Shown: positions 23,239-48,723 of the stretch, piece by piece
Layout: the number at the start of each line of letters is the position of its first letter
Position numbering within the stretch: position 1 is the first letter of the stretch
NCBI GenBank assembly: GCA_963556145.1
Contig: OY744472.1
Span: 3,534,001 to 3,598,000, forward strand
Length of the DNA stretch: 64,000 nucleotides
Origin: Hygrocybe punicea
Lineage: Eukaryota; Basidiomycota; Agaricomycetes; Agaricales; Hygrophoraceae
Direction: 5' to 3'
The notes under the pieces: generated by a model
Databases searched by the model: none
The model's input: only the letters and a program-made list of their open reading frames with translations
Told to the model about the DNA's origin: nothing
Made by a program: the position numbers and the translations under genes

Positions 23239-23274
23239 TTACGAGTTCTTCCATTTATGGAAAACTCGTTCTTA
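23239..23274 (+). other. Helitron 5' terminus (palindrome), right copy
   Basis: TTACGAGTTCTTCC then ATTTATGGAAAACTCGTTCTTA: imperfect palindrome with ACGAGTT/AACTCGT arms. The same start occurs at 18013, 19855, 9855(-), 22178(-) and 23146(-), and in diverged form at 53822(-). Confidence 0.75.
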
Positions 23275-23678
23275 TAAACCCGGTTTTCAGCCATTGAGGT
23301 GATTCATTCATTCATCTCAGGGACTGAGGGAAAAATGTGTCCAAATATAGCAACTGAGTTCTAAATCCCTTTTGACTGGTTTCATCCGAGAATCCAGAGC
23401 CTCTATTGACTTGCACACTGCATGGATCTTCACCAAATTTGACAATGAGTATGTGATGGGGACCATCCTGCTGGAAAAAAGTTATGGAGTGCATCTGGTA
23501 TAATTTGGGCTACCTGTGAGCTATTCTTTGCAAGAGATATGAGTATAGCTACAATAACTGGTGTAATATGGCAAAGTAAAAGATGGTACTTTCTAGCTAC
23601 ATTCTATTGTATGTCTGGGACACTTTTGTCCACTTAAGGCAGCTGGTAAATGTGATATCTGAGTCTCTAGAATGCAAA

Positions 23679-24304
23679 TAAGTGAGGGTGGCCCGGAGTT
23701 GTGGCTAAAATTCAAGTGGAGTTTGAAATCCATGTTGAGAGCATTCGAGCTCAGATGAATCCAAAACCTTCTCTTGGTCAACAGCCCCATCCCCCTCCAT
23801 TTCAGACTCTACTGCCAGCCCCCTGCTACACCTACTGCCCTACAACTTTCCCATCCTCCTCTACTGTCCCCTAACTCTCTCCAGGAAACCTTTTGGCCTC
23901 CAAAAGGTCACCGATGTCTAGCAATAGTGTCACCAGCAACCCCAGCAACAGAAGCACATTCCGGCTGCTTTGGAGCGCCATGGAGGGTTTCTGAGGGCAG
24001 CAGGGGATGTGGTGCACCCACCTCCTGCTATACTAGATGAGTTTTCTGTTTTATTAGCTGTCCTGGATCTGAATTGACCATGGGGTGCTCACCCAGGTGT
24101 CACCTGCTCCTCCCAGCCTTTCCACCCTATTCAGCACCCTCCCAGCCTTCTTTCAGTCCCGCTGTAGTCCCAGCACCCATTCGTCACCATCTCCACTGCT
24201 TCCTTTACCCCTCTTAGCCTGTTCTGCCCCTTTTTCACCCTTCTGCTCATTCCCCCTCTCCAATCCTTTCTTTGACCTTTATTGACTCTCTTATCATTCA
24301 CTTA
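23679..24304 (+). repeat. Dispersed repeat R1, right copy
   Basis: Inverted counterpart of 8790-9415; diverged relative at 51780-52440. Confidence 0.75.
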
Positions 24305-24422
24305 TCACGACTATCTCTCATTCCCATCCATTGCCTTCATTGTAGCCATATTGTAATACTTTGTAAATAATTTGACATTTAATGAAATTAATTAAATTAC
24401 AGATAAGTCCCTATTTGTAGAA

Positions 24423-26018: not shown

Positions 26019-26769
26019 GACCCGCACATGCAATCCGTGAGTTGGATATTTTTTGTTCACCTTCGCCCGGATACCACTGACTGATGTTCACACAGGCCGT
26101 GATCGATTCCGGCACCCCGTTTCCAACCGAAATGACGAGTCTGCGCGAGGGGAACGGCCGCACACACAATCCGTGAGTTGCCCCCCACTTGATTTTTTTT
26201 TGTTCACCTTTGCTCGGATACCACTGACTTAAACTCACACAGGCCGTGGTCAGTTCCGGCACCGTGTTTCCACCCGAAACGATGTGTTTGCGCGAGGGGA
26301 ACGGCCGCACACGCAATCCGTGAGTGGCCCCCCCCCTTGTTTTTTTTTGTGCACCGTCGTTCGGAAACCACTGACTCATGTTGTCACAGGCCGTGGTCGA
26401 TTCCGGCACCCCGTTTCAGACCGAAACGACAAGTCTGGGTGAGGGGAACGGCTGCACACGCAATCCGTGAGTTTCCCCCCCCCCTTGTTTTCTTTTGTGC
26501 ACCGTCGCTCGGAAACCATTGACTTAAGTTCACACAGGCCGTGGTCGATTCCGGCACCCTGTTTCCCCCCGAAGCGATGTGTTTGCGCGAGGGGAACGGC
26601 CGCACACGCAATCTGTGAGTGGCCCCCCCCCCTTGATTTTTCTTGTGCACCGTCGCTTGGATACCACTGAGTTAAGTTCACACAGACCCTCATCAATTCT
26701 GGTATCCTGTTTCCAACTGAAAGGATGAGTTTGGGCGAGGGGAACAGCTGCGTACAGAATCATTCTGTC
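26019..26769. repeat. Minisatellite, ~148-bp unit, about 5 copies
   Basis: Inverted counterpart of 5880-7075 but 445 bp shorter, i.e. three units fewer. Confidence 0.95.
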
Positions 26770-28001
26770 TCCACCCACTTTTTTTTTCTGTTTTTTTTTG
26801 TTGCTCCAGCATTGTTGGGAGACCCTTACCTTATGCCTACACTTAATCAATGCTCTACCTTTGTTTGCACTTGAATGAGCTCTCTCAGCCTTGTTGTATT
26901 ACTTTAATAGTTGAAATGTTATATTTTTTGCGCAAACAATGTTGTTTGGTCACGGTGGTGCATTGCTTTTTGCTTTCTGCTATACCTACTAGCCCAACAA
27001 TTGTTTTGGGAGTCCCAGACAATTTAAACTGCCTCTGTGCTTGTCCTAGCCTGATTCTTGGTGTTGTACACCAACAATCTTTGCTGTCAAAGCTCTCATA
27101 AACGACAAAGTACGTTGCTTTTTTGAAAGCTGGATTTCACTCATCTTGTGTCTTCATCCTACACATCTAGAGCCATCTTGGAGATCTTTGCAAGGGTTTC
27201 CTTTCCGTAGCTCCAAATCTCCATTTGGTTCAGTGGTTGTGGAGCTATAACTGTTTTACTATTCAGGTACATTTGGTTGATATTACAGCAACCCCTAATC
27301 ATAATTTTATCATCCTAGCAATTATTTTGAAGCCCTTGCTTCCCTCTATCCAACTACCACTAAATCAGCAGAATCCAACCGCTGGTTCACAAGGTATTTG
27401 ACTTTTTCTATCCTCACACTCCTATCTCTTTGTCTCAGAGTATACTCATCCAAATCTCTTGATTTTGTAGCCAATTTGGGACCTCTTGGCAACTTCTTTC
27501 TGCTGGTATCTTGGCCTTTCCAAGAGACCACTCTGGTCCCGTGACAAGTCAATTTTTCATTGGCTTTTTCACTTGCGCTTGGCTTTTCGTCTCCGATTGA
27601 TCTGGTACTTCTGGGACTAGTTCTGGACTCGCGTATTATCACTCTCATCAGTTCTTGCTGTGGCTGTAGTGCTGCACATTGGTTTATTAAAAGGAGACTA
27701 GAGCAAGGTGAATTACAGAGAAGTGCTACCTCCCTGGGCTCTCTCTACGAGTGTTACCCCAGTTGCTTGTGATCTAACCAATCACTGCACCGCTCTCTGT
27801 AATACAGTGTGTAGGGAGATTGGGCTGGCGGGTTTACAGTTGCCTCCCCTTCCAATTTGGAAGATTCTCTATTATCAACTACCACTGTTGACACCGATTT
27901 CATCTCTTTGAGAATATACTGGTAGTGTGTACTAGATCCACAGAGAACTGATTTTCAACCTCGCATCTATCCCAAACTCCCCACTGTCCTTTGACGTACT
28001 C
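26770..28001. other. 5' region upstream of the dioxygenase-like gene
   Basis: No gene recognised. Inverted counterpart of 4648-5879. Probably includes the promoter of the gene starting at 28002. Confidence 0.4.
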
Positions 28002-31000
28002 ATGGATCTCTCTGACTTGATTAATGTGGAAATGTGTGAACAAAATGCTCCGGTGAGTTCTGAGTACTCATTTTAATTTGAGTTGCTTGCTCAAGGTTCT
28101 CATAGGATGATGGCAACCAGTTTGATGCTCCTATGGGGTCAAATACCGATCAGATGGACTTGGATGTCGCAGTTGTCAACAGAAATCAGGACAATCTATC
28201 ATGTTCGTTTCTATAACATTATATTTTCTTGCTTTTGTTTAATTCTCCTTCAATAGGCCACAATAATCCTGAATCAGACAATCCAGTTCTCTTTGGTATC
28301 AGGGATGTATACAGCATATCTCCTCTGGATTCCTATACAACAGAACCGCCCTACGACTCATTTTGGTGTGAAGATCAGATATCCAGGACACCTGTATCGT
28401 CACCAGCTGTATTGGTTCCACCTCCCCCCACAAATCCTCCTGAGGGATCTGGATTCGTCTATCCTAATGCGCCATCTTATACGTTGGTTCAAGATAACCG
28501 TTATCAAAGGGGATACACATATGTAGCCAATTTCGACACGGCTAAGAAAAGCATGGTTCTGGAAACACTGCTCCATACCATTACCCCTCCAAACATAGGT
28601 CCTAGTTTGGTTGATGGGAAACTTGTACACGTTCCAGTTCCTGGCATGATCCTGATGCCTGTTGGCATACCATTCGTTAATCGTATAAATGGCTCCGATA
28701 AACATATCATCACCGTCACCTGCATTCAAACCGTTTCCTCCATGCAACAGTATGCGTGCGGCCCAGAAGTCAGCAGACTCGCTGATGAAGTACTGGAAAT
28801 AGCCTTTGGAAAACCACCTGTTATTGGCCAGCCTGCTGTTCCTGCCATATACGACCTTGGACTTAAGCACAATGACAGGTCCACAACAGACATTGGCGAT
28901 CCTCGTAATGGTTCCTCCAGTTTGGCCACAACCAAGATTGAGGGTGATGGACGTGGCGTAATTGCACCTGCTGTTCAAGTTCAACATCCACAGATATCCC
29001 GCCTTCTTCGCATCTGTTACCAGCTGTTCCGACACATCATGCCAGCTTGCATCTCCAAGCTGGAGTGGGATATGTTTGAGTGGATCTTTTGGGATAACAA
29101 TGTGCCTGGATTTGGTGGTCCTTTACCGAACAACACTGGTCTGCAAGTCAATGTATCATCTGATATCGGTGATCTGGCTTCCATGATTGGTCAGTTCCAG
29201 GGGAGATTGCACACCGATCGCAATGATTTTCATCCGGCATTTACTCTTTTTATTCTGGCTATACGCTTACCTCCAGGTATATGTTTTTGTCATATTTCTT
29301 TTCTAAATGCATTTATTAACAATCACAATAGGCAGTGATTCTGGTCCCTTCTTCTTCCCGAGGCCTGCTTTATACTTCAGGGCAATAAATGTTGCCGTGT
29401 TTTTTTCAGTGTTCAAGGGACAGGATCTTCATGGTGGTGAGAAGCCAACTGTAAATCCAGATCCAGTTGTGGCAAAGGAGTGGCTGGCGCAGACTGGTCT
29501 TGGTCAGCTTGCGGATTTGGTTGGCATGCAAAATCGGGTCGGCATGGTTGTATATCCTAATCATGCTGCATTTACACGGATTACCCCATTTCTCGTTACC
29601 CCAGTCACAGGCTTCGGAAACATGGGATCTCAGTCACATTTCAGCCGTGGATACCCTACCTTTGCTAGTGATGGCCTACAAATCTTTGGAGATATCGCAA
29701 CACACAAGAATTTCCTTGCACGTGACCTTGTGTGTAACTCCTGGAATAGCGCCATTCTTGCTGGCATAGATTCCCCTGTGCATCCTTCTGTTATGCTGTC
29801 CAGCATGACTTATACCGATGAGAATGGGGAGATTTGTAGGATGGCACCTCTTCCATACGATCCGGTCAAAGACAGGTCTTTTGTGCGACGAATGAGAGGA
29901 TACTACTCGTGGTATGTGCAGAAGATATGTGATCCACATCATATTCCTATTACGAAGACGGCATATGGAAATACCCAGCAGCATTTGCGAGAATCATACA
30001 AGAATTCATTGGAATCCTCTCGCCCACGACTTGCACCTCTCAATGTCCGACTCCCCATCAAGCCACGACTTGCAGTTACTCCAGATCAGGATTCAGACGC
30101 TGCTCATTCTACTCTCTCAACACCTTTGTCATCCCCCCCAGCATCGGTGATAGATATCAATTCTGAAGAGCCTATTGCAGCTGTTGCTGCTAATGTCAGA
30201 CAGTCAGGATCAAAGCGAAAGGCTCTTTCTCCTGTGACCGAACAGTTGGATGACTCCCATCTTCCTGAAGCAGATGACACTGTAGAGATTGAGAATGATG
30301 ATGGCTCAGAGTATGAGATTGAATCTATCCAGGAGGTTGCAATAATTGATGTAAGTATCGTCTGGATTCTTTCACTTACTCATTACTATTTCCTTTTGTA
30401 ACTGAAACTCTTTGTTTAGGGGATTCCCCAATGGCGTCTAAGATTCAAGGGATACGGACCATCTGAGGACTTGTGGTATGAGCATAAGGGAATTGCGTAT
30501 GTGTTTCTTTTATTCCATACCAATATCTTTGTAATCTTTTGGATTTAGAAAATCTGCTCCCTGCCTTCTCAAGGAGTTTCATAGGAATCCCCAGAACAAT
30601 GTTCGTCCCTTACATGAACTGGTGTCATCAGCTGGGTCCGATGATGATAGCGACACTTCGGATGAGGATTGGGTTGACGACCAAGACCCAAAGCCAAAGA
30701 ATACATCTTCTGCATGCCCTCAACCCGACATCATAACTGACCCACCCACAAAGCAACCAAGTTCCTCTGTAACTACAGGCATGCTTGTTATGCCTGTGGT
30801 TTCACAGTTTCTCGGTCCTGTGCCTGATACGTCCTTCAAGATGCTCGATATACTTCTTGATGTGACCAGACTCCAAGAGGAAGCTATTGCGCTGGATGCT
30901 GGTCAGAACCTTGTTGGCAAGCCTATGGATTCCAATACCATTGTCAAGCTTCTTCGTGATCGTCTTGACCTTGACAATCAGGTCACAGCATTTATGGAAC

Positions 31001-33377
31001 TTGCACCAGAATCAAAGTACACCAACGTATCACCAAATGATGAAGCCACCCTAATTTTGGAACAGATCGTTGGCTCAGTCGATATTCTCCCTGCCCTGAT
31101 GGTGGAATCTGAAAAACTGTATTTTCTCCAAAGAGCTATCCAGTGGCAGATGTGTCGTTCCTACTTGGTGTTCTTTCAGTGGTATGAAGAAAGTGGCCCA
31201 CATCTGGCGCGACAGGTGGCTAACAGTCATCGAGAACACACAATTAACGCTACTTTCCCATCATTTGCAAACTGCGTCAACCATGTCGTACAATATGTCA
31301 CATGTGTTCGTACTCGACAACAAAGTATTGTTAGTCATGGAACCAAACGACGCAAGACCTCAGCAAAGACAACCAATTTACCGACTCCTCATCTCGAGTT
31401 CAATGACGATTTCACAAGACTTTCACTCATACCCTCCCATTTTGTTGACAATCGCATCAAGTCCAGTTCTTCTGCCGTCACACCTCTGCCAATTGTGAAT
31501 CGGACCATCAACAATGGTGATGCAGCACTTTATGCCATTGTTTCAGAAGTCCTCTTTGCACTGTGGTGTGATGCACTTATCATCCCCTCACTTGATACAG
31601 CGGATAACCTGTTCAACACCTCTCGACGTCGTAAAATTCCTAACGACTCAAAGACAACTTGGAACAAGAATGTAGTTGACCGCTCAATTGTTCGAGGTGG
31701 GATTGTTATGGCATTAGTTGATATTGTTGGAGAGGGCATACTGGCATCTGATGGCATCCGCAATTTCCTATCCAGTCCAGCCAGGATGTTTACCAAAAAC
31801 CTGCAGAAGGATGACGCATTCGCCAGTAAACTCATTCGGGATTATGCAAGTACTATGGAACCTCTCATTACTCATGTTGAGGATTTGCTGGCCGCTAAAC
31901 CAAAGATAGCAGATTGGTGTGATTACATTGGAAAGTTGGTTAGTGGTGCTCTGGTGGATCTCGGTGATAGGAGTCTTTCTGCTCTGCCAGGTGGGGCATC
32001 CAAGGGATCGAGATCCAAGAAGAAATGCGTTCCACGGTCCCCACTCAAGCCTGCTCTTCCCATCAAGAAATTGGAGGACATATTGACAGATTCCAAGGCG
32101 CCACATTTTGGTGCTCTTGCTTTAATCTGCCGTGAAGCTTTATCTGTGGATCATGGAAAGGGCATTCAAGACCTCCATCTCAATCGCGTTCTCTTAGGCC
32201 AAACGAAGCCGAAGTACCAACGGACACATACACTTAGTCAGACTTACCCATTCCGTCATGCCAGCCCATATGCGATTCTGTTTGCAAAACACTTGCCAGC
32301 CAGGCAACTCACCGGACGACTAGGTTTGGCCAATGCATTGGTGTTTATGGTTAGTTCTCAATGTGAGGACACCGTCAAGTTTTTGAACAGCGTCACATTC
32401 TGGTCCGATTCACTGGAGGAATGTATAGAGACTTTTGATCAAATTGTCAGGAAAAACTCGCATTTCTACACCGATCTACGCTATAATCCCATATCACCAT
32501 CTTCATCCAAGACCAAGACAAGTAAAGCAGGCGATACAAAGAAGAAAACTGGCTTTTTTGCCCTGAACAGACGCGAGCAGGCAGCCTTAGGGTATATTCA
32601 TTTTGACTCACCAACCATATGGGGTCAGCCTTCCTGTCAGCTCAGTCTATTCTCAAAAATCCCCCATCGAGATCCTCTGGTGAATCGTTTTACTGAACTC
32701 TTCAGTGATGATTTTCAGACCAGGTGGACGAACTTTCTTGGACCGCTTTTCAACCAAGACCCTGCTTCCTTCACAGGAAATAAACCCACATGGAATGATA
32801 TGCATCAGTTTATTTGCAAGCTCAGTGTAGCTGGCTTAGGATCAACAACACAATCCTCCCTTACTGCGTTTCAACTCACAAATAATCTCACACTTGCACA
32901 CCTCTGCACGCCTCCTCTTGTAGAAGACGTAACAGCCTGGATATGGAAGATGAAGAAGGCTGGTGCTTATCGTGGTCTACAGGAACTAGGATTCGATGTC
33001 ACATCTCTCCACAGGACCCACACATCATTCAAATGTGTGTTCAAACACTTTGATGATAATCTGTCGCAGCGGGATCGGTCTTCAATGGGATTTGACATCG
33101 GTTGTGGTGTCATTTTTGTGGAGCATATACTGTGCAAAGTCGTTCGCTGGGATAAGCGCTTGGTGTACAATTGTGGTCAGGGTGCCAGTCTGGTTGGGCT
33201 TGGAGATGTAGCGGCTGGTAAGGTAACATGGGCAAAGGGTGCTAATCATGACGATGCATCCCTTTTTCCAATTCCTCTTAAAATGAGTCAGGATCGTCTG
33301 ACAGAGCTTTTGGTTGACGGTAAGATATCTCTTATATATTTGTTATTGGTTCTCATATCACCTCTTCAGCTTCTTAG
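28002..33377 (+). CDS. Fe(II)/2OG dioxygenase-like (possibly TET/JBP-type) protein with chromodomain
   Basis: Seven exons: 28002-28052, 28106-28202, 28257-29276, 29332-30350, 30420-30496, 30549-33319, 33370-33377. They sum to 5043 nt (1680 codons plus stop) with consistent GT..AG introns, which supports the model. Residues ~355-435 look like a double-stranded beta-helix: His368-x-Asp370 in LHTDRND, hydrophobic strands, then FKGQDLHGG with His423. This is the metal-binding pattern of 2-oxoglutarate oxygenases. Around residues 720-765 a chromodomain spans exons 4-6 (WRLRFKGYGPSEDLW). A Ser/Asp/Glu-rich linker and a long alpha-helical C-terminal region of unknown fold follow. If TET/JBP-type, it would oxidise methylated bases in DNA, with the chromodomain targeting chromatin. 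That is inference: only fold motifs are seen. It lies inside the giant Helitron; a near-identical inverted copy is at 1-4647. Confidence 0.72.
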
Positions 33378-35158: not shown

Positions 35159-37914
35159 ATGTCATCCATGTCCCGTCGTGCTGCAACAAAGCAAAGCTCC
35201 AAGTATGTTTTCATTTCTGATTTAGCATAACTATTCCACCTGGGACTGATTGCTTTGAATTAGATCTATTTCTCGTAAAAAAGCAACCAAGCAAGTCAAC
35301 GAGCGTGAATATGGTTCCAGGTATTCATTAAACTTCTACATGTCACTACTTACTAAGATGTTTCTACAGTGACATGGATGTACTGTATGTTGTTCAGGAC
35401 TTTACACATCAACTCACAACTTACATTAAATAGAGGGGAATCGGACGGTGACAATGTCATCAAGTATCTACTTGTTCTTGCCTTAGTGACCGACCACTCA
35501 TCCACTCATTTCTAAACAGAGATGTGTCATCAAAGATTAATCCGTCCACTCCTACAAGGGCTTCCCGATCCATCCAGCGTTCCAAGAAACGCGCTGTATC
35601 TGAGTCTGACTCTGAAGGTCAGCCTATTGCAAAGCTACCGTAAGTGCCACCTTTGTGTATTCTAGGTCATTGGTTTAGCACACAATAGGGTTAACAAACG
35701 CCAAAAGTCTTTGTATGCATGCGTAAATGACTTAGCCATTTTTATCATGTGCTGACTTTGCAAATCTAGAAATAACAAGAAGTCCAAGTCCAAAGATGTT
35801 CCATTGGTTTATGAGGATGAGGATGAGGATGATGTATTTTTGTAAGCACCAACCGCTTTTGCATTATCTGTTAACATGAACATGCTGATGGGACATTTAC
35901 TAGCGTTAAATCTAACACAAAGAAAGCAAAAGGGTATGTATCATATGATTGCAAATACACTATATTAACCGTATATCTGTTACCATCTATCAGCCATCAG
36001 TCTGACTCTGCATTAATTGATGTTGACGCTGAAGAATCTGAAGGGTATGCCACTTTACATTTGTGGATATGTGCTGAGGAGATCTTATCAATAGTCTTCC
36101 TGTACCGGATGATACGGCTACTGACAATATTTCTGAGGATAATCAGTCAGTGGCACGTACTAATCGTGCAAAGTAAGTTTGTGTTGATTCTGTGTGGTAC
36201 TTCCCTTATAATCCTTCACAGGGTTGTGGACAGTGATAGCGATATTGAGTTGGTCAAGTTTGTCGCTCATATGTTACTGTATCCATGCATCAATACTAAT
36301 ATTCTGTAGTCCTCATGTCAAAGGAAGAAAGGAGCGGTGAGTTATTCAAACTGATGCTTCATAGGTATACTTGATTCACACCATACCAGAGTACGTGTAC
36401 AAGAAACGTCAAACATCACCAATGAATCAAAGGGCTCAAACGATGAAGCTATGATACGTTCTTCAGGCAAGAATACCAAGTAGGAGCTGTCTTCATCTCT
36501 GGAGTTACGCTTATATTTCCGTAGGACTGTGGTCAAGAAGAGCAAATTCAAACCAGCGACACCCAGTGAGAATATGGTTCCAGTATATCAGAGGACAACT
36601 GAGAACAAGTTTAGTTTTTCATCGTTGATCATGTTCACCATTTGATTAGTTTCCAGGCCAGTATCCAAGGGCAAGAAGAAAGTCACCGACCAGGAGGAGA
36701 AACTTGTGTATATGGAGGATTTGCCTGAAGCGTACGTATTGCGTATCTAATTCTATATGGCAGCTGATTAGGTAATAGTGATTCGTTTGTTAATCCTACT
36801 ACTGAGAAGGCACCATTGGACTGTGAAGTCACTGACCCGGGTCTGTTTGATCCTTTCATTGCTGACACATATGGAAATCTTCCTCACCTCCGGTGTGTAT
36901 GTTGTTTCTCAAGTCTTATTCTAACTCACATGTTCGATCAAGTGCTGGTACACTTGTCACATCAAACAATGGACCGAATCCCATGGGTCCCTTTTATTTG
37001 AGCTTAATTCCTGATGTTTGTCCAGGTGTCAATATCGAGTGAGATTTATTTTATTACATTGAAAAATATACTGATGTAGTTACTCACCAATATAATTAAT
37101 AGTGTTATCATCAAGGCCATTACGTTCACGAGAGCTGGGATCTTTGTTAATCCTTCACGTGCATCACCCTCTATTGTCAAGTCCGCTGCATCTTCTGATT
37201 CTGTTCGGAGCACAAGATATGCCATTCAAGCGAACGCTCCCCACAATTTTCTCTACACCATTTTCACTTCCGTTCTTGCTGTCAACTCCTCCAATTTGCA
37301 TGAGCGTGATCCTCAAGGGATGTTCCGCCAGATAACCGGCACTTTGTGCACCCAGGAGTGGGAACGCTTCTGTGCCTTCTTTTGTATGGTTTTTAAGGCC
37401 AAAGAACTTCATGCCCAGATCTATGAAGATGCGATATCCATCAGCACCAGAGCCAAGCCTAAGGACGGTGGAGGTAAACCATGATTAACTTTGTTAATAT
37501 GATTGCTGAGTTGTGTATAGACCGTTCTCAGCAAGGATTCAGCCGTTTGTTGGCTAAAGGCTCACCTGCCAAATCACCTGTTAAAGTAGCCGGATCATCG
37601 AGGACTGGAGCAGTGAAGGGTGCTCTCAATTTTGATGACCATGGTGAGTTGTCGTATTTCGTTAAATTGTGTTACCAATCATTAATATGTGCTATGTATG
37701 TAACTCAGTTCCAATTTACGATGGGAGAAAGGGCAACTTCAACACGAATCAACTGCAACTTCTAGATACAACGTTGAATCCTTGGACTGACGATTTATCT
37801 GGCAGCATCTGTCTTGTTGGATACACCGCGAATACTTGGGTTGGCAAAGAGCTTTCCACGCAGTTGTCACTCAACGTGCAATGGGTTGTCGTCCTCGCAT
37901 CATGCAATGAGTAG
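35159..37914 (+). CDS. Many-exon cargo gene of unknown function
   Basis: Starts with ATG at 35159 (MSSMSRRAATKQSSK) and ends with TAG at 37912-37914. Many short exons are separated by ~50-nt introns. The first half encodes basic Lys/Arg/Ser pieces and acidic stretches (EDEDEDD near 35815), suggesting a disordered nuclear protein. The second half is more conserved-looking: FTRAGIFVNPSRASPSIVK near 37130, then HNFLYTIFTSVLAVNSSNLH and EWERFCAFFCMVFKAKELHA up to about 37420. Two further exons end in ...LNVQWVVVLASCNE. I do not recognise the fold and cannot name a function. Exon boundaries in the first half are approximate. A diverged 3' relic of the same gene is at 24600-24690. Pairing with the minus-strand neighbour suggests they travel together. 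Confidence 0.6.
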
Positions 37915-38513
37915 TATTTGATTATCTCCAATATCTGTCGCTGAATACCTTGTATATACCTGTACCACCTCCACCCCCCTTTGGATTCGTCTTTGTCTGG
38001 AATTGTCTGTTGATACCCTAGCCTGTACATTTTTGTATTCATGTTTTAAATTATTGCCAGCCGGTCTGCATATTGTTCTTGTCTGATTACTAAGAGTTTT
38101 TCTTACTCTGAAAGCTAAACTCCGAAAATTAAACTCAACGGTTTCAATACTCTTGCCTGCATACCATGTTGTTCCACTGTGTTGTGTTTCTATTATTGTT
38201 GCTTTTTCCTGCTCCATCTTGTCATTTGAACAGTGCTAAGGTGGGTGTCATAACTAGATTGCTGTCTTGCCGCAACTAATATCTATCGAGAGTATAGGCT
38301 AGTTCAATTGACCCGTATCATATGGCATATACAGATGATGCGGACATGTTTGCTGGTATATATTTCAAAATCCCATAGTCATTTGAAGCTGATAAGAATC
38401 ATAGACACAAATGCATCATCGAGTATATAACTTCTGACCAATCGCATTTGTGTTAGCTGACCTATTCATAACAACAGAAACATCTCATGGCCTTGTCCAT
38501 AAGGTACAAGGCT
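37915..38513. other. Intergenic region upstream of the Rep/helicase frame
   Basis: No gene recognised. The Rep frame is open from about 38450 but has no ATG here, so this may hold promoter, leader or an unseen first exon. Confidence 0.4.
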
Positions 38514-38549
38514 GGGTGTTATACTATCGTCCTGATACACCCCAGGATA

Positions 38550-39095
38550 GGGTGTTATACTATCGTCCTGACACACCCCAGGATAGGACACAAATATCTA
38601 TTTATCGTCTTGCTGTGTCCCAAGACAGGGTGTTATACTATCGTCCCGACACACCCCAGGATAGGACACAAATATCTATTTATCGTCTTGCTGTGTCCCA
38701 AGACAGGGTGTTATACTATCGTCCTGACACACCCCAGGATAGGACACAAATATCTATTTATCGTCTTGCTGTGTCCCAAGACAGGGTGTTATACTATCGT
38801 CCTGACACACCCCAGGATAGGACACAAATATCTATTTATCGTCTTGCTGTGTCCCAAGACAGGGTGTTATACTATCATCCTGACACACCCCAGGATAGGA
38901 CACAAATATCTATTTATCGTCTTGCTGTGTCCCAAGACAGGGTGTTATACTATCGTCCTGACACACCCCAGGATAGGACACAAATATCTATTTATCGTCT
39001 TGCTGTGTCCCAAGACAGGGTGTTATACTATCGTCCTGAAACACCCCAGGATAGGACACAAATATTTTCTTATCATCTTGTTCATCTGTCCCAAG
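38550..39095 (+). repeat. 78-bp tandem repeat, 7 copies, in frame with the Rep/helicase
   Basis: 'gggtgttatactatcgtcc' recurs every 78 bp (38550, 38628, 38706 and so on to 39018), with a partial unit from 38514 and degenerate copies continuing to about 39500. Because 78 is divisible by 3, each unit encodes 26 residues beginning RVLYYRPDTPQD in the Rep frame. No ATG occurs in this frame until 39134, so translation of the array is not established. Confidence 0.92.
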
Positions 39096-39133
39096 ACTGG
39101 GTGTTATATCATTGTCCTGATACACCCCAGGAT

Positions 39134-42100
39134 ATGGTGCTTTTTTATCATCCTGTTTATGCACCGCAGAACTTGAGTGTAAAAACACAATCATCTTATC
39201 ATCTTGCTCATGTGTCCCATAACATGCTCTTGAATTATCAACCCGATGCACTCCAGGATATGGTGCTTTTTTATCATTCTGTTCATGCACTGCAGAACCT
39301 GAGTTTAACGACACAAATATCTCCTTATCATTTTGCTCATGTGTCCCAAGACAGGCTATTCAATTATCAAGCTAATGCATGCCAGGATATAGTGTTTTTC
39401 TATCATTCTATATATAGGTCTGCACCACAGAAATTGATTTCAAGGACACAGACAATGTGTGATTATCTTGCTCATCATGTGCCCCACAGGAGAATATTAA
39501 ACAATAGTGGAGATTATCATTTTTCTCATGATATCTCTCATATAACAGAAGAAACAGTACAATGTCTTCCTGACCTAGATCACCTTTGTTCAAACCATTG
39601 GATTTTAAAGCCCAACAAAGAACTACCATTTATTATTGAATTCTATGTACGACTTCTTCTATATGTCAATGCATCCATGCATGACTCATTATTTGTGCAT
39701 GAAATACTTCCCTGGAAGTGTCAAAGAATACATCTAAAGCTGCTACAAAACATGTATGTAGCACATGACTTTGCAGTATATATGCAAAAATATCAAACAT
39801 TAATGATATATAGTTTATTGTTTATCTTTCAAGTATTTCTGGTATATTATTCACAATATTTTATAGGTCTTAATGTCATATGTACCACTGCTTTGAAACA
39901 TGAATCTGCATCAGATAATAAATATTGCTCTAATGATAATAATACCAAGGAGAACGATACAAATATGCATAATATTGTTGGTGGTGGATCAAAGTTGTTC
40001 ATATTTAATGAGCTGTCTCCTTATTTATCAAATTCCATAAGATATCCTACTCATGTGAAATTCAAATTCAGAGAATATATAAAACAATCAGATACAAGAA
40101 CTGATACATTAAATACATTAACATGTTTTGTGCCATGGGATGTGTTATTACCACAATTAACAACAGATCAACTAAAGTCCATTGCAGCAGCTCATAATAT
40201 TGTCACATATGCTAGATCTCATAAGGCAGATATTCAAACTTCAATCAAGAGCCATATATGTGCAAGTTGTGCTCAATATCTACCTGTATTTGATGTCATA
40301 GATATTGAAGTTTTAAATAAGGAATCAAAGGCATCTAATGCAAGAGCAGTGAAACGATATCAAAGCCAAAATATAGAATACAAAGTAAAAAATATGCAAT
40401 CAGTAACAAGATATCAACAAACAAAAGGTGTAGAATACAAAGTAAACAACTCACATTCTGTGACAAAATACCAACAAAAAAAAGGTGTAGAATATAAATT
40501 AAATCATGCAAAGTCAGAACAGAAATACAAAAATAAACACAAAAACATATTTCCACCCCCACCTCTCACAGCTGCTCTACAACATACAATTATAGCTAAC
40601 GCATGTCAAGATATGTCACCTGATCAGATATCAGAATCAGGATGTGCGATATGTGGTCAATTGACTTCAATTAAAGATTTATTAAAGCTCTCTAATGTCA
40701 ACGCAGACTTGAAGATATTAAGAAACCCAGATGTGACACAAGCAGAGCGGTTGACTGCTGAAGATCCCATCAAAGGCTTGGATGGCCCTGTCTTAATTAA
40801 ACAGCTGCACAATATATGCATAAGTTGCCATAAATCTTTGACAAAAAACAAAGTCCCATTGTTGTCATTAGCAAATGGAAAATGGTTAGGAGATGTTCCA
40901 GTACAGTTGATGGATTTATCATTTGCAGAACAGTTGCTGGTTGCAAGAGTACGACACAATCGTTGCATTGTAAGAGTGTCTTCAGGGATGCATAAAATGA
41001 GAGCAAATGCAATCACTTTTGCTAATCCTATTCCTAAAGTGTATGATATTCTACCTCCACCCATTGAAGACTTGGATGAAGTTCTGGCATTTATTTATAC
41101 AGGGCCATGTAAGCCCACTAAATCAGACTTTGAGAGAACACCTCTTCTTGTAAGAAGAAACAAGGTTAAAGCGGCATTGGAATGGTTGAAGTTGAATCAT
41201 TGTAATTATTACGATCTGGAGATATCACAAAGAAATCTTGATCAGTATCCAGAAAATGGTCCTCCAGTTGTTGTAGATTATCATCAATCTTTTACAAATA
41301 AAAATCCAGAGTCAACAGCTGTTAATGACATTGAAGAGGAAGATGGTGTTGAATCAGGAAAATGTCCATTTGTTGTTCATGGTTTGACAGGTGAAGAATA
41401 TTCCAACAAAAGTGCCAAAGCTCTCAAGGCCATTGCATTAAAGCATTTGACTTCAAATGAAAAAGTTCTAGCCATAGGTCATGCAGCTCATCCTGAATCT
41501 ATTTATGGCAATCCACAGTTATTTCCTCAAATGATGCCCTGGTTGTTTCCATATGGACTTGGTGGAATTGGCAATGCCTATCAGCAGGGAGAATTATCAG
41601 ATATTAGACACAAAAGACATTTGCTTATGTATCATGACAAAAGATTTCAAAAAGATCCATATTTTCCATTGATTGCATTTAATCACGAACAGATAAAACA
41701 ATGCACTACAGCAGGATATTTATTAGCGGAAAAGTCAAAATTCCAGGAGATTTCTAATAGGTTGTTAGATGTCAACATTCATACACTAGCAGACATTTCT
41801 AAAAGAATGGAAAATGGTGATAAAGTAATACCAGAAACAGATGAGGAAAAATTGTGTTTTAAACTCATTAATGATATTGATCATGTTGGAGGTGGTGTAA
41901 AAGGATCTGTCACCAGCAAAAAATATATGCGCAATGAAATTTGGTCTTTGATTTCATTTGTTGGTGCACCCTCTTGGTTTATTACATTTGCTCCTGCCGA
42001 CAACAAACATCCAATCTCATTATATTTTGCAGACACCAAAGAAACATTTAATCCTGTTCTAAGGGATTATAATGAAAGATATCGATTAATTGCCCACAAT

Positions 42101-45100
42101 CCAGTAGCTGGTGCAAGATTTTTTCATTTTATGACACAGTTATTCATTAAGCATGTACTTGGTGTTGGAGAAAATCATCCAGGAATCTATGGCAATACAG
42201 AAGCATATTATGGAACAGTTGAACAACAAGGACGGTTGACATTGCATATGCATATGCTCTTGTGGCTTAAAGGAGTATTATCACCGCAACAAATCAGAGA
42301 CAGAATTATGGATCCAAATTCTGATTTTCAACAAAGATTGGTGGAGTATCTTGAGAGTGTGCATATTGGAGAGTTTGTTACTGGATCCATGGCTGATGTA
42401 AAAGCCAACATTGAAGAAAACAGTCAATCTAAGGATTATCAGGATCCTACTCAGACATTACCGGATGCACCTCCACCAATGTGCAATAAGTCAAATCATG
42501 TTTGTAATGAACATTGTTCTAACAAGTCACAACTTAATTTGTGGTGGGATAAATTTTCAAGTATAGTTGATGACTTGATTATGCGTTCTAATATACATAA
42601 TTGTGGTAGAAATCAGTCAAGTAGCGAGAAGGCCAACAAAAAAGATAGACCGACGTGTATGAACAAGCATGGCAAATGCAAAGCCAGATTTCCAAGACAA
42701 ACCTTTGAACAGACTCAAATTGATCCTAAATCAGGAGCTTTGAACATGAAAAAAGGTGAAGCTTGGATCAACACATTGACACCATGCATAACATATCTCC
42801 TTCGGTGCAACTCAGATGTGACAAGCCTCCTCTCAGGTACTGCTATCAAGGCTATAGTGGCATATGTCACTGATTATGTTACAAAACCTGGTCTGAAAAC
42901 ATACACTATCTTTGACTCTATTCGGAGTGTTTTTACTAAAAATTCTGAAATGCTGGGAGGATCTATGAAACAAAAAGACAAAGCTAGACGTTTGATAACA
43001 CAGATAATTAATTCATTGACATCAAAGATGGAAATAGGTGGTCCAATGGCATCTTTGTATCTGCTAGGTAATCCAGATCACTATACAAGCCACAAGTTTG
43101 TAACAGTGTATTGGAAAAGTTATGTGAGAGAAACAATGAAGGTGTTCAAATCTGACCAGGATACTGTTGAAAACAGTGAGACAGACAAGGTTCTCTTGCA
43201 AAAAAACCAAAATCAATATGTTGGCTTTACAGCAGTCCATGATTACATGTATAGACCAAATACCTATAATGTTACATGCCTATATGAATGGATACAAATG
43301 GCAAGACGAGTAAAAATACCTACTCCAACACAGAAAAATCATAATGCTCAAAACAGTGATGATGAGCTGGACTTGATTGATTCAAATGCAAAAAATCAAC
43401 AATATGAAGCAACAGCTGGATGTAATCTCAGGTCACTAGGTGATATTGATGATGATGAGCTCAATTTAGGAAATAATGAGAATAGAGTTGACAGTTGCAA
43501 TGAAAATAGTGATTACAGTGGTAGTTATGATAGCAACACTGATTCAAGTGGGTCTATTACTGCTGATGAAGATGGAAATGACATTTCTAAAGAGGACAGT
43601 GATAATGCCTGCAATATTAATGCAAATTCAGATTCAATTGGTTCTGATGGCACAGACAATAAACAGGCTCATAAATATTTTTTGTCAGCTCATCCATTAC
43701 ATGAAACACACTGGATAGAATATCATTCATCATATAAAAAAGTTGTGCCTAACTTTGTAGGTGGTTCACTTCCAAGAAGAGATCGAGGAGATAGAGAATA
43801 TTACTGTGCCACCATGCTTACTTTATTCAAGCCCTGGAGAACAGGCCAAGATCTTAAGAATAACAATGAGTCGTGGGATGAGGCATTCACAGACTATAAA
43901 TTTACATCACGACAAAGCCAAATAATGGATCATTTTAATATTAGATATGAATGCAATGATGCTCGAGATGATTATTCAGCTCAGCTCAAAAAGGGTGATG
44001 CTACAGCTGGTATATTTCATTCTTGGATGACATCAGAAGAAATGGATAACATGGATGATATCAATGAGAATGGTCATGGTGATGATTTTGGTGATAATGA
44101 AGGAATTGATAATGAGGATTATGGATTAAATAAATACTCGACCCTTGGATCAAAAGGAAGACTAATCAATGCACAAATGAATGCCACTGAAGATAGTGTC
44201 AGAAATGCTGGTTGGCTGGATTTCAGTCCTGATGGCATCAATACAATTGATACTTCTCCACTTAAGCCTGAAATCATACAGCCTGGTGGTAAATGGAAAA
44301 CAGCTGTTCAAGATAAAAGACAAGAAATCATTGCTGATAGAAATGCACGTGTCGCTAATGCTGAACACACCAGAAAAACTCATGCATCTGAAAATGACGT
44401 TAAAGTTGTTGACCAATCATATTTAAAACATGATTTCCAAGCAAAGATGCAAGTTGTTCAGGAATTGATAGATGGCACAGTTACTTTTTTCAAATTAAAT
44501 ACTGAACAACAAAGAGCATTTAGAATTGTTGCTAATCACACTGCGACTTTAAATTCAGATCAGCTAAAAATGTATCTAGGTGGCATGGGTGGAACTGGCA
44601 AAAGTCAAGTAATCAAAGCACTCAAGCATTTGTTTGAACATAGACATGAATTACATCGTCTTGTTATACTGGGTCCAACTGGAACATCTGCAGCATTACT
44701 GGGTGGCTCAACTTACCACTCATTCCTAGGCATTCGCATGAATAATGATACCAGTAATCAAAGTGTAGCAATTGCTCAAGTGAGAGCAAGGCTAGAGGGA
44801 ATTGATTATATTTTCATAGATGAAGTATCTATGTTGGCATGCCATGAATTATACAAAATCAGCTCACAACTTGCCAAAGCTCTGAATGTATTTGATGTGC
44901 CATTTGGAGGCATTAATATTATTTTTGCGGGAGATTTTGCACAACTGCCACCTGTTGGAGGTGCATCTTTGTATAGTGGTTCAGTAGGAACACAAATAGA
45001 TTCTGGCCTGAAGCCACATTATCAAGAAGCAGCTATTGGCAAAGCACTCTGGCATCAGATCACAACAGTTGTCATTTTGAGAGAAAATATGCGTCAAAAG

Positions 45101-47218
45101 ACACAAACACCTGATGATGCATCATTGCGATCAGCTTTAGTAAACATGCGATATGGTGCATGCACTCCTGAAGACATCAGATTTCTAAGAAAGAGAATTG
45201 CTGGCAAACGCTCAGATCAGCCAAATGTTGCTGCAAAAAATTTCAGAAATGTTGCTATCATCTGTGGGGTGCACTCTCAAAAAGACAGAATCAATCAGCT
45301 TGGATGTGAGCGTTTTGCAGAGGATACAAATCAAAAGTTGACCCACTTCTACTCTATGGACAAATGGGGCAAAGAAAGTGATCCAGCTAATAAAACCAAA
45401 TGGGGGAAATCCAAAGTGGCATCAAAGACAATTCACAAATCAAATCAGATTAATTTTGATGAACAACTTGAGATTTGGAAACTCAACCATGGAGCAACTG
45501 AACACTTTCCTGGAAAGCTCCCATTGTGTCTTGGCATGCCTGTGATGATCCGAAACAATGATGCAACTGAATTATGCATCACCAAAGGCCAGGAAGGCAT
45601 TGTTGTTGGCTGGCAATCAATCAAAGGCCCTCATGATAAACGTGTTCTCGACACACTCTTTGTGAAATTGGATAATCCACCTCAATTGGTTCAAATACCT
45701 GGTCTACCAGATAATGTTGTTCCTATTGTGAAGAGCACAAAAACAATTCACTGTCTATTTCCAAGTGACCTAAAAGAATCTGTTGAAAGACAACAAGTAT
45801 GGGTGCTGCCCAACTTTGCTATGACAGCTCATGCATCTCAGGGAAAAACCCGCCCTTACAATGTTGTACATTTAAACAGCTGTTTTTCACACATGTCATA
45901 TTACACAGCTCTGTCTAGAAGTGCAAGTGCAGCAGGCACCATCATTATCCAAGGTTTTGACCCTAATGTTATTACAAGAGGTTGCAGTGGCTATCTCAGA
46001 CAAGAATTCAGAGAACAAGAAATATTAGATGATATCACAAGGCTTAGATATGAAGGACAACTACCTGATCACTTAACTGGGCAACTCCGCAATACATTGA
46101 TTCGTCAATATCAATTATGGAAAGGCACTGATTATGTTCCTGCCAAAGTAGATGCAGCATTAAGATGGTCTGCCAGAGATCCACTACCTATGCTTCCTGT
46201 GGTTGTTGACAGTTCATGGCAACTCATTGGAAAATCTACTGATGGAAAAGGTAAGAAAAATTTACTTCAACAGGCCAGTCTTGGTTTTGTGGCTGCAAAA
46301 GGAAGCTCACCAGTAAAGCAAAATTTGAAACGTACTTATGATGAACATGATGAGACACCACTTTTGAGTAGGAAAAAGAGAATAATAACTCATGAAGGCA
46401 GTTGCACTATTCTTACTCCTCGTGGCATACATTGGGATGAAAACAACTGGAGTTGTGCATATGATTCACTCTTTGTTATTTTGTACAATATATGGGCAGA
46501 ACATCCTGCAAGTTGGACAACAAGATTTCAGTCAATTGGAAACATTTATCTGTCAACACTTGTACATGGGTTTAACATGATGGCATCACAATTAAGCTTG
46601 GAAAATGTAAGAAATGCAGTGAGAATGAAACTCCATGCCAAGAATCCAGAACAATTTCCCATGGGTGCTACTGGCATCAGTGTTGCTACACTATGTATGG
46701 AAATGCTGAAACCACGAGATTGTATTGCATCTTCACAGCTCATTTGTTCTCACTGTGATTATGAAGGTCCAGAAAAAGATGACAATCTTACCTATGTATT
46801 GCATGCTGATTCATCTGTTTCTGGCTCAACATCTGATTGGGTGCAAACCATTGCATATCATGTTAGAAATAAATGTCCACAATGTAATGTTTCAATGATG
46901 CGTACCATATACTATACAAAAACACCTGATTTGCTAGTATTAGAATATCCCAACATAAACATGATTACCAGCCATCAAATAACTGTAAATGTAAATGAAA
47001 AGTCCATAAATTTGCATCTAAGAGGTATTGTATATGCTGGAGGATATCACTTTACATCTCGATTCATATCAGAAGATGGAAAAATTTGGTATCATGATGG
47101 AATGACAATGGGAGCAACATGTAAGCGAGATGGCCACATTGGTATGATGTTGGATGATGATTTTAAAAGATATGAAAATAAAATTCTTGTGCTAGCAGTT
47201 TATGCACGAAACCAGTAA
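39134..47218 (+). CDS. Helitron Rep/helicase with C-terminal cysteine-protease-like domain
   Basis: The frame is open from about 38450; 39134 is its first ATG, giving about 2694 codons. The true start could be later or in an unseen exon. In order: Cys-rich region (CAICGQL near 40645), Helitron N-terminal region, HUH nuclease motif (LTLHMHMLLWLKG near 42240) and its two-tyrosine motif (AYVTDYVTK near 42860). A CxxC-rich stretch (42480-42700) and acidic low-complexity DNA follow. The Pif1-type SF1 helicase has Walker A GGMGGTGKS at 44580, FIDEVSML at 44815, GDFAQLPPVGG at 44932 and HASQGKTRP at 45832. At 46430-47200 there is a peptidase-like domain: NWSCAYDSLF (Cys), two CxxC pairs, then GGYHFTSRF (His) and WYHDG (Asp). 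It would nick, unwind and transfer element DNA in the nucleus. No stop interrupts it, so this copy may be active. Confidence 0.9.
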   Translation: MVLFYHPVYAPQNLSVKTQSSYHLAHVSHNMLLNYQPDALQDMVLFYHSVHALQNLSLTTQISPYHFAHVSQDRLFNYQANACQDIVFFYHSIYRSAPQKLISRTQTMCDYLAHHVPHRRILNNSGDYHFSHDISHITEETVQCLPDLDHLCSNHWILKPNKELPFIIEFYVRLLLYVNASMHDSLFVHEILPWKCQRIHLKLLQNMYVAHDFAVYMQKYQTLMIYSLLFIFQVFLVYYSQYFIGLNVICTTALKHESASDNKYCSNDNNTKENDTNMHNIVGGGSKLFIFNELSPYLSNSIRYPTHVKFKFREYIKQSDTRTDTLNTLTCFVPWDVLLPQLTTDQLKSIAAAHNIVTYARSHKADIQTSIKSHICASCAQYLPVFDVIDIEVLNKESKASNARAVKRYQSQNIEYKVKNMQSVTRYQQTKGVEYKVNNSHSVTKYQQKKGVEYKLNHAKSEQKYKNKHKNIFPPPPLTAALQHTIIANACQDMSPDQISESGCAICGQLTSIKDLLKLSNVNADLKILRNPDVTQAERLTAEDPIKGLDGPVLIKQLHNICISCHKSLTKNKVPLLSLANGKWLGDVPVQLMDLSFAEQLLVARVRHNRCIVRVSSGMHKMRANAITFANPIPKVYDILPPPIEDLDEVLAFIYTGPCKPTKSDFERTPLLVRRNKVKAALEWLKLNHCNYYDLEISQRNLDQYPENGPPVVVDYHQSFTNKNPESTAVNDIEEEDGVESGKCPFVVHGLTGEEYSNKSAKALKAIALKHLTSNEKVLAIGHAAHPESIYGNPQLFPQMMPWLFPYGLGGIGNAYQQGELSDIRHKRHLLMYHDKRFQKDPYFPLIAFNHEQIKQCTTAGYLLAEKSKFQEISNRLLDVNIHTLADISKRMENGDKVIPETDEEKLCFKLINDIDHVGGGVKGSVTSKKYMRNEIWSLISFVGAPSWFITFAPADNKHPISLYFADTKETFNPVLRDYNERYRLIAHNPVAGARFFHFMTQLFIKHVLGVGENHPGIYGNTEAYYGTVEQQGRLTLHMHMLLWLKGVLSPQQIRDRIMDPNSDFQQRLVEYLESVHIGEFVTGSMADVKANIEENSQSKDYQDPTQTLPDAPPPMCNKSNHVCNEHCSNKSQLNLWWDKFSSIVDDLIMRSNIHNCGRNQSSSEKANKKDRPTCMNKHGKCKARFPRQTFEQTQIDPKSGALNMKKGEAWINTLTPCITYLLRCNSDVTSLLSGTAIKAIVAYVTDYVTKPGLKTYTIFDSIRSVFTKNSEMLGGSMKQKDKARRLITQIINSLTSKMEIGGPMASLYLLGNPDHYTSHKFVTVYWKSYVRETMKVFKSDQDTVENSETDKVLLQKNQNQYVGFTAVHDYMYRPNTYNVTCLYEWIQMARRVKIPTPTQKNHNAQNSDDELDLIDSNAKNQQYEATAGCNLRSLGDIDDDELNLGNNENRVDSCNENSDYSGSYDSNTDSSGSITADEDGNDISKEDSDNACNINANSDSIGSDGTDNKQAHKYFLSAHPLHETHWIEYHSSYKKVVPNFVGGSLPRRDRGDREYYCATMLTLFKPWRTGQDLKNNNESWDEAFTDYKFTSRQSQIMDHFNIRYECNDARDDYSAQLKKGDATAGIFHSWMTSEEMDNMDDINENGHGDDFGDNEGIDNEDYGLNKYSTLGSKGRLINAQMNATEDSVRNAGWLDFSPDGINTIDTSPLKPEIIQPGGKWKTAVQDKRQEIIADRNARVANAEHTRKTHASENDVKVVDQSYLKHDFQAKMQVVQELIDGTVTFFKLNTEQQRAFRIVANHTATLNSDQLKMYLGGMGGTGKSQVIKALKHLFEHRHELHRLVILGPTGTSAALLGGSTYHSFLGIRMNNDTSNQSVAIAQVRARLEGIDYIFIDEVSMLACHELYKISSQLAKALNVFDVPFGGINIIFAGDFAQLPPVGGASLYSGSVGTQIDSGLKPHYQEAAIGKALWHQITTVVILRENMRQKTQTPDDASLRSALVNMRYGACTPEDIRFLRKRIAGKRSDQPNVAAKNFRNVAIICGVHSQKDRINQLGCERFAEDTNQKLTHFYSMDKWGKESDPANKTKWGKSKVASKTIHKSNQINFDEQLEIWKLNHGATEHFPGKLPLCLGMPVMIRNNDATELCITKGQEGIVVGWQSIKGPHDKRVLDTLFVKLDNPPQLVQIPGLPDNVVPIVKSTKTIHCLFPSDLKESVERQQVWVLPNFAMTAHASQGKTRPYNVVHLNSCFSHMSYYTALSRSASAAGTIIIQGFDPNVITRGCSGYLRQEFREQEILDDITRLRYEGQLPDHLTGQLRNTLIRQYQLWKGTDYVPAKVDAALRWSARDPLPMLPVVVDSSWQLIGKSTDGKGKKNLLQQASLGFVAAKGSSPVKQNLKRTYDEHDETPLLSRKKRIITHEGSCTILTPRGIHWDENNWSCAYDSLFVILYNIWAEHPASWTTRFQSIGNIYLSTLVHGFNMMASQLSLENVRNAVRMKLHAKNPEQFPMGATGISVATLCMEMLKPRDCIASSQLICSHCDYEGPEKDDNLTYVLHADSSVSGSTSDWVQTIAYHVRNKCPQCNVSMMRTIYYTKTPDLLVLEYPNINMITSHQITVNVNEKSINLHLRGIVYAGGYHFTSRFISEDGKIWYHDGMTMGATCKRDGHIGMMLDDDFKRYENKILVLAVYARNQ

Positions 47219-47720
47219 TTTAATATCATTGAGGACTATTGGGTGGGAAAGTGGGACATTCAAAATTTTCACCAGCTGAAATTCATATTGGACATCAAAA
47301 TTGGAGGAAATCTTCTGGGTGGGAAAGTGGGCCATTAAATATAGGAATGTTATAAATCGATTACATGATGTCAAACACTTAAGTTCTTATTGTTACTTAT
47401 TGCCCGAGCACTGATAAGTAAGGGTAACAGTGGTAGTAGTAAATGCCAGGATAAACTGTTGTATAACTAGTAATATACAAGTATGGCAGGAACAAGTGTA
47501 AATAATATTGTCCAAGAGATTGGTAGTCTCTTGATCAAAGGCCCCAACTGCAGATAAATAGTACATTGTCACTAACAGAACAGGATAACATAGAATGTAT
47601 GATTCCAAATTCCAACAATGTTCATATATACTACGATTATTCTTGTTATACATTACACAAACAAATTAGTGCAGCTTATGTAGAATAAATAATGTACATT
47701 AAATGATTGAATAGAACCCA
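47219..47720. other. 3' noncoding region of the giant element
   Basis: AT-rich, no gene. A direct repeat 'ctgggtgggaaagtggg' / 'attgggtgggaaagtggg' occurs at 47238 and 47315. Confidence 0.5.
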
Positions 47721-47765
47721 GAAGAACTCGTTCATGCCATGCTTGCGATGGCCCACTTCCCCAAG
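47721..47765 (+). other. Helitron 3' terminus (inverted repeat, hairpin, tail)
   Basis: GAAGAACTCGT is the inverse of the 5' terminus (23241-23251). TCATGCCATGC...GATGGC forms a small hairpin, and the element ends CCCACTTCCCCAAG before T. Related ends are at 21020(-) and 20133(-), and a weaker one is near 21425(-). Hairpin plus short tail at the 3' end is the transposition stop signal of Helitrons. Confidence 0.75.
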
Positions 47766-48715: not shown

Positions 48716-48723
48716 AAAGGGGG

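Follow-up and report, generated by a model that had tools for sequence, protein, structure and literature searches.

The window analysed here, a stretch of 64,000 nucleotides (C40:3534001-3598000 of an assembly of 92.2 Mb in 42 contigs), contains a complete giant Helitron, copy A, in which three intron-containing genes precede a long Rep/helicase frame, and the beginning of an inverted second copy, copy B (Table 1). The models of the three genes, drawn by eye on the genomic sequence, use GT-AG introns and are open throughout, in line with the original prediction of three intron-containing genes.

Table 1. Features of the window (position 1 is its first nucleotide)
Feature	Position	Strand	Remarks
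Start of copy B, 9.9 kb	1..9855	-	copy B is 24738 nt and continues outside the window to C40:3519118
Unoccupied target (copy A left flank plus copy B right flank)	19613..19912	-	300/300 identical, no gap
Copy A, complete giant Helitron	23239..47765	+	24527 nt; both termini; the same ends pair copy B and 11 others
5' terminus, palindromic hairpin	23239..23275	+	genome pattern matches and fold
5' arm of the 11-base asymmetric inverted repeat	23241..23251	+	ACGAGTTCTTC
Tandem array	26022..26792	+	unit of about 148 bp; array length unequal in copies A and B
Gene 1	28002..33411	+	6 exons, 1708 aa, open with GT-AG introns; homologues P0001-P0004
Gene 1 exons	28002-28052, 28106-28202, 28257-29276, 29332-30350, 30420-30496, 30549-33411	+	
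Gene 1 chromodomain	30300..30597	+	edges approximate, spans two introns; weak PDB/Pfam matches
Gene 2	33614..34756	-	6 exons, 302 aa; one modelled intron of just 29 nt
Gene 3	35159..37914	+	18 exons, 540 aa, K/R-rich N-terminal part; intact in 8/8 copies
Rep/helicase frame	38438..47218	+	2926 codons; DUF6570, Helitron_like_N and PIF1
3' arm of the asymmetric inverted repeat	47721..47731	+	
3' terminus	47720..47765	+	inverted repeat, weak hairpin, end CCCCAAG
Right flank of copy A, pieces of a related Helitron's helicase	47766..51027	+	DNA identity to the copy A helicase

Ends and genes of the giant element

The element starts with TTACGAG and ends with CCCCAAG. The palindromic 5' terminus that had been predicted at 23239 (TTACGAGTTCTTCC) is a true hairpin, with a folding energy of −9.2 kcal/mol (z −3.9), equalled by none of 200 shuffles. 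At the other side, the predicted end at 47765 stands, and the hairpin preceding the tail is weak: its 5-bp stem (−3.3 kcal/mol, z 0.16) is no better than shuffled sequence, 108 of 200 shuffles folding at least equally. The 11-base asymmetric inverted repeat expected to join the two ends is present; shuffling the two 60-base ends gave a repeat of this length in 3 of 5000 trials, and random window places paired at equal spacing gave one in 7 of 2000. Also as predicted, no other plus-strand 5' terminus was found between 23239 and 47765 with up to 5 mismatches. With the same tolerance, further 5' termini lie in the window at 18013 and 19855 on the plus strand and at 23146 and 9855 on the minus strand; those at 18013, 19855 and 23146 represent another subtype, with 2 mismatches, GGAAGAATCG replacing GGAAAACTCG. 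In the right flank of copy A, the helicase pieces at 47765-48099 and 50030-51027 have 72% and 74% DNA identity, respectively, to the copy A helicase, with other sequence between them.

Counted from its first Met (codon 233), the Rep/helicase has 2694 codons, close to the about 2700 originally predicted. Pfam recognised Helitron_like_N (1.9e-35) and PIF1 (6.1e-24) in it, and the motifs HMH (HUH) at residue 1269, YVTDY at 1476 and Walker A at 2051 were located, the Walker motifs being present. No endonuclease family was matched in the 2926-residue frame (Pfam, E up to 0.01), and the C-terminal part gave nothing better than E 0.78 against solved structures. Compared with the helicase of a 12.8-kb element described below, dN/dS was 0.249 over 2387 codons, or 0.365 with repeats included. 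At the start of the frame (window 38447-39158) there are 78-bp in-frame tandem repeats, and the frame length varies among copies.

For genes 1–3, no Pfam family was found, save a weak chromodomain when the corresponding segment of gene 1 was scanned alone; a Pfam scan of the 832-residue N-terminal part of gene 1 gave no chromodomain match. The best match of the segment in PDB (phmmer) was CBX5 (E 0.008), and 23 of its 30 matches there, with E up to 1, were CBX, HP1, CDY, MPP8 or SUV39H1 chains. Against Pfam Chromo the segment reached E 0.013 and 15.8 bits, compared with a curated cut-off of 25.1, and the Marasmius homologue P0004 reached E 1.5e-4 and 22.0 bits, also below that cut-off. Homologues of gene 1 were found at 91% and 65% identity (JGI collection, short contigs), at 35% in Schizophyllum commune and at 28% in Marasmius crinis-equi; the last two point to a mushroom-forming fungus as the probable source of this DNA. 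For genes 2 and 3, one search of the protein collection with a single chimeric query returned no homologues.

The dN/dS of gene 1 was 0.197 over 529 codons against an older paralogue with 2 in-frame stops, and 0.39 over 862 codons against a 94% identical paralogue, also with 2 stops; among recent copies, which have few changes, it ranged from 0 to 1.46. By the comparison with the older paralogue, gene 1 was under constraint.

Copies of the element and their insertion sites

The whole genome was searched with patterns of the two termini, allowing up to 3 mismatches and using the reversed sequences as controls. The 5' end was found at 243 places and the 3' end at 111, while both controls gave 0. 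When the best 100 of the 243 5' ends and the best 100 of the 111 3' ends were paired, at least 13 pairs, 24.2-28.0 kb apart, enclosed gene 1 and the Rep/helicase with no listed 5' end inside; other loci with both ends about 24 kb apart, by which the original prediction could be checked, thus exist. Three listed pairs of 12.7-13.0 kb have the helicase with no gene 1 match, 36 listed pairs of 2.9-4.3 kb share the ends of the giant element, and other listed pairs span from 5.4 to 38.5 kb, some of them nested. The genome has 22 full-length gene 1 matches (94-100% identity), 13 of which are inside giant end pairs and 9 without a listed pair of ends. Cargo genes at a fixed place without termini, which would have spoken against a mobile unit, were not seen, given these 13 matches inside end pairs.

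Eight of the 13 giant copies were retrieved whole and five by their ends only, all having been chosen for Helitron ends. The interior is common to all 8 wholly retrieved copies, and the sampled copies occupy different places with different flanking DNA. Copy B begins at window position 9855 with the same 5' end and closes with the same 3' end; beyond the first 3.5 kb it is 99.5-99.9% identical to copy A, compared with 97.4% in the first 3.5 kb. Relative to copy A, the first 3.5 kb of copies B, C40c and C35a is 2-3% diverged and the remainder 0.1-0.7%; this unequal divergence is a mosaic structure, produced by recombination or by end switching.

Smaller relatives were also compared. In one 3.5-kb element, the two ends enclose repeats and a fragment from close to the helicase end. 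The 12.8-kb element is 85% identical to copy A over the first 1.16 kb and about 93% across the helicase region and, because of these identities, we regard it as a sister lineage and not as a fresh deletion product. A 7.7-kb element of low-complexity content (C7:3137966-3145884) lies inside a giant copy, where it interrupts element position 3799/3800; it shares with the giant 547 bases at the 5' end (85%) and the final 49 bases. At C33:3597011-3597012 a giant copy stops, with its 3' end, exactly where another element starts with its 5' end; this head-to-tail contact would fit an insertion at the first T or a rolling-circle multimer.

Insertion sites were compared at 15 loci, namely the 13 giant copies, the 12.8-kb element and one 3.5-kb element. 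The base to the right of the insert is T in 15 of 15 loci and the base to the left is G in 9, A in 3 and T in 3. In the part of the genome searched, gapless empty sites were recovered with the own joined flanks of 5 of the 15 loci: C34 (160 nt, 98.1%), C36 (367 nt, 84.5%), C35b (200 nt, 96.0%), the 12.8-kb element (193 nt, 100%) and the 3.5-kb element (103 nt, 83.5%). The 7.7-kb element inside the giant copy also gives an uninterrupted target. In the same part of the genome a junction-spanning match was absent for C8a, C41, C35a, C40c, C8b, C3 and C1, and the one for C33b was merely a gapped match; the left flanks of C41 and C33b are not independent, since they lie 6 bases apart in copies of one repeat. 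Insertion is precise, between N and T, and without target duplication. The empty sites looked for by the original prediction were therefore found, at 5 of 15 loci and for copies A and B together, but not joined as A and T: A stands before T in just 3 of 15, and the predicted A-T target was not borne out.

When the own flanks of copies A and B were joined, none of 42 and none of 40 listed matches in the genome, respectively, spanned the junction by 12 bases. Instead, the left flank of copy A and the right flank of copy B form one uninterrupted repeat; of the 13 long matches listed for the A left flank, A itself included, 10 have both halves side by side. Therefore, the two copies seem to have swapped flanks, which is why neither has a contiguous empty site of its own; the swap was perhaps made by inversion of the 13.4 kb between them (window 9856-23238).

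The element is thus copied as a block: both termini, together with gene 1 and the helicase, are found within 24.2-28.0 kb in at least 13 copies, and empty sites exist, so that the single mobile unit of the original prediction is upheld. Two other readings of the block were weighed. The 5' and 3' ends might come from two different elements, the 24.5 kb being a chance pairing over nested insertions and host genes; 5' ends are many (243) and 3' ends fewer (111), and nesting does occur here. The same ends, however, enclose gene 1 and the helicase at similar spacing in 13 places, with an interior common to the 8 whole copies, and these recurrences led us to reject a pairing of unrelated ends, whose probability we put close to nil. 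The block could also spread mainly by segmental duplication or recombination among repeat-rich clusters and not by transposition, as might be argued from the flanks apparently exchanged between A and B, probably by recombination between inverted copies, from the first 3.5 kb being more diverged than the remainder in several copies, and from the near confinement of the listed ends to clusters. We consider this very unlikely: the copies stop at their termini with other sequence beyond, gapless empty sites are found, and the same ends pair the 36 small elements.

An HUH Rep fused to a PIF1-type helicase, common to all Helitron types, is present in the element, and so is precise insertion without target duplication (5 of 15 loci, A and B together, and the 7.7-kb element). 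Canonical Helitrons (Helitron1) have a 3' end CTRR. This type, which starts with TC and targets A-T, was rejected on the TTACGAG start, the CCCCAAG end and the A before T at 3 of 15 loci; a Helentron was likewise rejected, no fused AP endonuclease being among the Pfam matches of the helicase frame. As in Helitron2, there are asymmetric terminal inverted repeats (11 bases) and a Rep/helicase in which Pfam finds no endonuclease; of the palindromes that Helitron2 has at both ends, the 5' hairpin is strong and the 3' hairpin is no better than shuffles. Helitron2 is described as inserting between TTTT and T or C (PMC5148889); here the base after the insert is T at all 15 loci, and at none of the 15 does TTTT stand before it. 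We consider it very likely that the element is an autonomous, unusually large Helitron2-like rolling-circle transposon.

The three accessory genes and a second giant family

When splice sites were checked in the 8 whole copies, gene 3 was intact in all, gene 2 in 6 and gene 1 in 3, and all three genes together in 3 (A, B and C8a). In 4 of the 8 the helicase frame is long (at least 2796 codons), and only A and B (2 of 8) have genes 1–3 and this frame all intact. The predicted unusually large unit with intact multi-exon genes is therefore correct as to size (24-28 kb) and for the 3 copies with an intact trio.

A genome search with gene 2 gave 164 matches and, among those listed, relatives at 29-48% identity, some on chromosome arms. 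One locus, C36:4640173, has a 5' end matching 34 of 37 bases of the giant element, inside another helicase. Downstream of it lie tandem repeats and then two genes on opposite strands, one resembling gene 2 (minus strand, 35%) and one resembling gene 3 (plus strand, 50-55%), and next a minus-strand frame whose motifs are laid out as in TET/JBP, broken by a repeat-flanked insert. At a second locus, on C8, the order is as expected, with a gene 2-like gene at 2947707, the TET-like frame at 2951454 and, from 2957507 onwards, the helicase, which is 55-63% identical to the copy A helicase over most of its length and 32% in the N-terminal part. Stretches of this second family were noted at C36:4635800-4650700 and C8:2953200-2963100. 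The family is known from such partial loci, and no element with both ends was obtained. The frame, which we take to be TET-like, had no match in Pfam or among solved structures, so that its label is taken from the motif layout. At 17 or more of 46 places (17 among the 28 best), a TET-like match has a gene 2-like match 3-6 kb away, with side and strand as expected; among the gene 2 matches listed, no such pair has the wrong side or strand. Gene 1 and the TET-like gene thus alternate between the two giant families.

Since genes 2 and 3 recur in the second family in a similar layout, they look like accessory genes that the element lineage has had for a long time, and not like fresh captures, and they appear older than the split of the two giant families; the captured cargo of the original prediction is probably the wrong picture for these two genes. 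For gene 1, 76 genome matches were obtained with the N-terminal 636 residues; of these, the ones examined that lie clearly outside the clusters are either incomplete or decayed (50-92% identical) and, for this reason, a clear source gene was not seen.

Two further explanations of the trio have to be set against this evidence. Recently captured host genes, carried as passengers with no role for the element, would be in keeping with the capture of genes by Helitrons, including genes of unknown function that are expressed in Pleurotus according to PMC4289320, and the 12.7-13.0 kb elements, with a helicase and no gene 1 match, indicate that the cargo is dispensable for copying. On the other hand, the examined N-terminal matches of gene 1 offered no clear source gene, gene 1 was, by its dN/dS, constrained, and genes 2 and 3 are oriented to each other in the same way in the second family, which has a helicase at 55-63% identity, so that a passenger origin seems unlikely to us. 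The trio could instead be a different transposon that entered an ancestral Helitron; the gene 2-like family is large (164 matches), with some listed members on chromosome arms, and for 9 of the 22 full-length matches of gene 1 no pair of Helitron ends was listed. No second set of ends was met in the copies retrieved, all picked for Helitron ends, and the second family also has genes 2 and 3 between a Helitron 5' end and a helicase; we judge such an insertion quite unlikely. Taken as a whole, an autonomous giant Helitron2-like element, copied as a block and equipped with old accessory genes, is the explanation in which we have high confidence.

Chromosomal clusters, proposed mechanism and known systems

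Within 400 kb of one median per contig lie 97 of the 100 listed 5' ends and 96 of the 100 listed 3' ends, that is 193 of 200 listed termini on 13 contigs, in 10.4 of 92.2 Mb in all, the medians being computed from the same terminus data that they score. As a control, 4 of 40 scored copies of the LTR retrotransposon of the window were within 400 kb of the cluster medians; 21 of the 22 full-length gene 1 matches were within this distance and one was at 401 kb. The control element is a Ty3-type LTR retrotransposon with an integrase chromodomain (window 11539-17072, minus strand), dispersed over the chromosomes. A chromodomain alone cannot explain the clustering, because this dispersed element has one too; elements without gene 1 are also clustered. 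Copy A is the rightmost listed copy on C40 and the library used detected no Helitron sequence to its right between window position 54001 and C40:3618000, 36 kb beyond A. Beside this cluster edge is the host gene WAPL (window 56173-58435), seen as two frames just below the Pfam WAPL cut-off.

The 13 clusters are probably centromeres, by analogy with Agaricus bisporus, in which one large cluster on each of the 13 chromosomes is held to be the centromere (PMC7473861). Such a location is not new by itself, because rolling-circle elements are known in Drosophila and plant centromeres: DINE-1-like elements of Drosophila are Helitron-like elements in centromeres (PMC4067079), and truncated Helitrons in plant centromeres are cited in PMC5148889.

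The genes and the element are known here from sequence. By comparison with the Helitron family, the Rep/helicase would nick at the hairpin-marked 5' end, one strand would be peeled off to the CCCCAAG 3' end, and a circular intermediate would form. The copy would then be inserted between a base, mostly G, and T, with no target duplication, the whole 24-28 kb including the three spliced genes being copied as one block. Selection probably preserved the trio as long as the element was active, with piecemeal loss in dead copies. Through its chromodomain, gene 1 may link the element, or the complex of the element, with heterochromatin, and gene 1 might act in targeting or in escape from silencing. 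A wider proposal, which we hold to be less likely than not, is that these elements form a giant Helitron clade with a conserved gene 2-gene 3 module and an exchangeable chromatin gene (chromodomain reader or TET-like dioxygenase), which would use these genes to live in, and largely build, the centromeric cluster of every chromosome, as a rolling-circle counterpart of centromere-targeted chromoviruses. If chromatin-related genes steer or protect the element, the occupation of one cluster per chromosome by a DNA transposon becomes testable.

A unit of 24-28 kb with three intact spliced genes, copied many times, is exceptional in size for fungi: according to a 2019 review, fungal Helitrons reach 14 kb and maize Helitrons up to 39 kb with gene fragments, and capture of full-length genes is exceptionally rare (PMC6431247). 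In the titles and abstract openings of the open-access papers listed for the terms used, neither a chromodomain gene in a Helitron nor a Helitron-specific centromere cluster in a fungus is named. As described in PMC4289320, HELPO1 of Pleurotus ostreatus is, like our element, a basidiomycete Helitron with a Rep/helicase and no target duplication; it carries from one to four complete predicted genes, of which some have an unknown function, and has autonomous and non-autonomous members. Set apart by description, HELPO1 measures up to 13.7 kb, its genes lie downstream of the helicase and its 3' end is CT[A/T]G, whereas the giant element has 24-28 kb, genes upstream of the helicase, a CCCCAAG end, an asymmetric inverted repeat and one cluster per chromosome. 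The Helitron2 elements of Fusarium, FoHeli, share with it asymmetric terminal inverted repeats (12-16 bases in FoHeli, 11 here), a 3' arm about 20-40 bases from the end, a 5' hairpin, self-insertion and tandem copies, but they are reported to be about 5 to 11 kb long and to target TNAT before A or T, unlike the N before T found here (PMC5148889).

A chromatin-related gene is likewise carried by the TET-bearing fungal Helitrons, one of which is a Helitron2 in Agaricus bisporus (PMC12730594); the element of the window has instead a chromodomain gene, the TET-like frame being in the second family. The Proto-Helentron of Phytophthora can be likened to it, by description, for the several hypothetical proteins beside its Rep/helicase, although it is another lineage (PMC4067079). 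DINE-1-like and plant centromeric Helitrons resemble our elements in being rolling-circle elements enriched in centromeres or heterochromatin, but are short non-autonomous or truncated (PMC4067079, PMC5148889), whereas autonomous giants are present here too. Finally, the one large repeat cluster per chromosome is shared with Agaricus bisporus, in which the cluster-specific families are described as retrotransposons and unknown repeats (PMC7473861), while here a Helitron family is nearly cluster-specific. Gene capture by fungal Helitrons is already known, as are Helitron-like elements in the centromeres of other organisms, and what is new here is the size, the gene module and the clustering.
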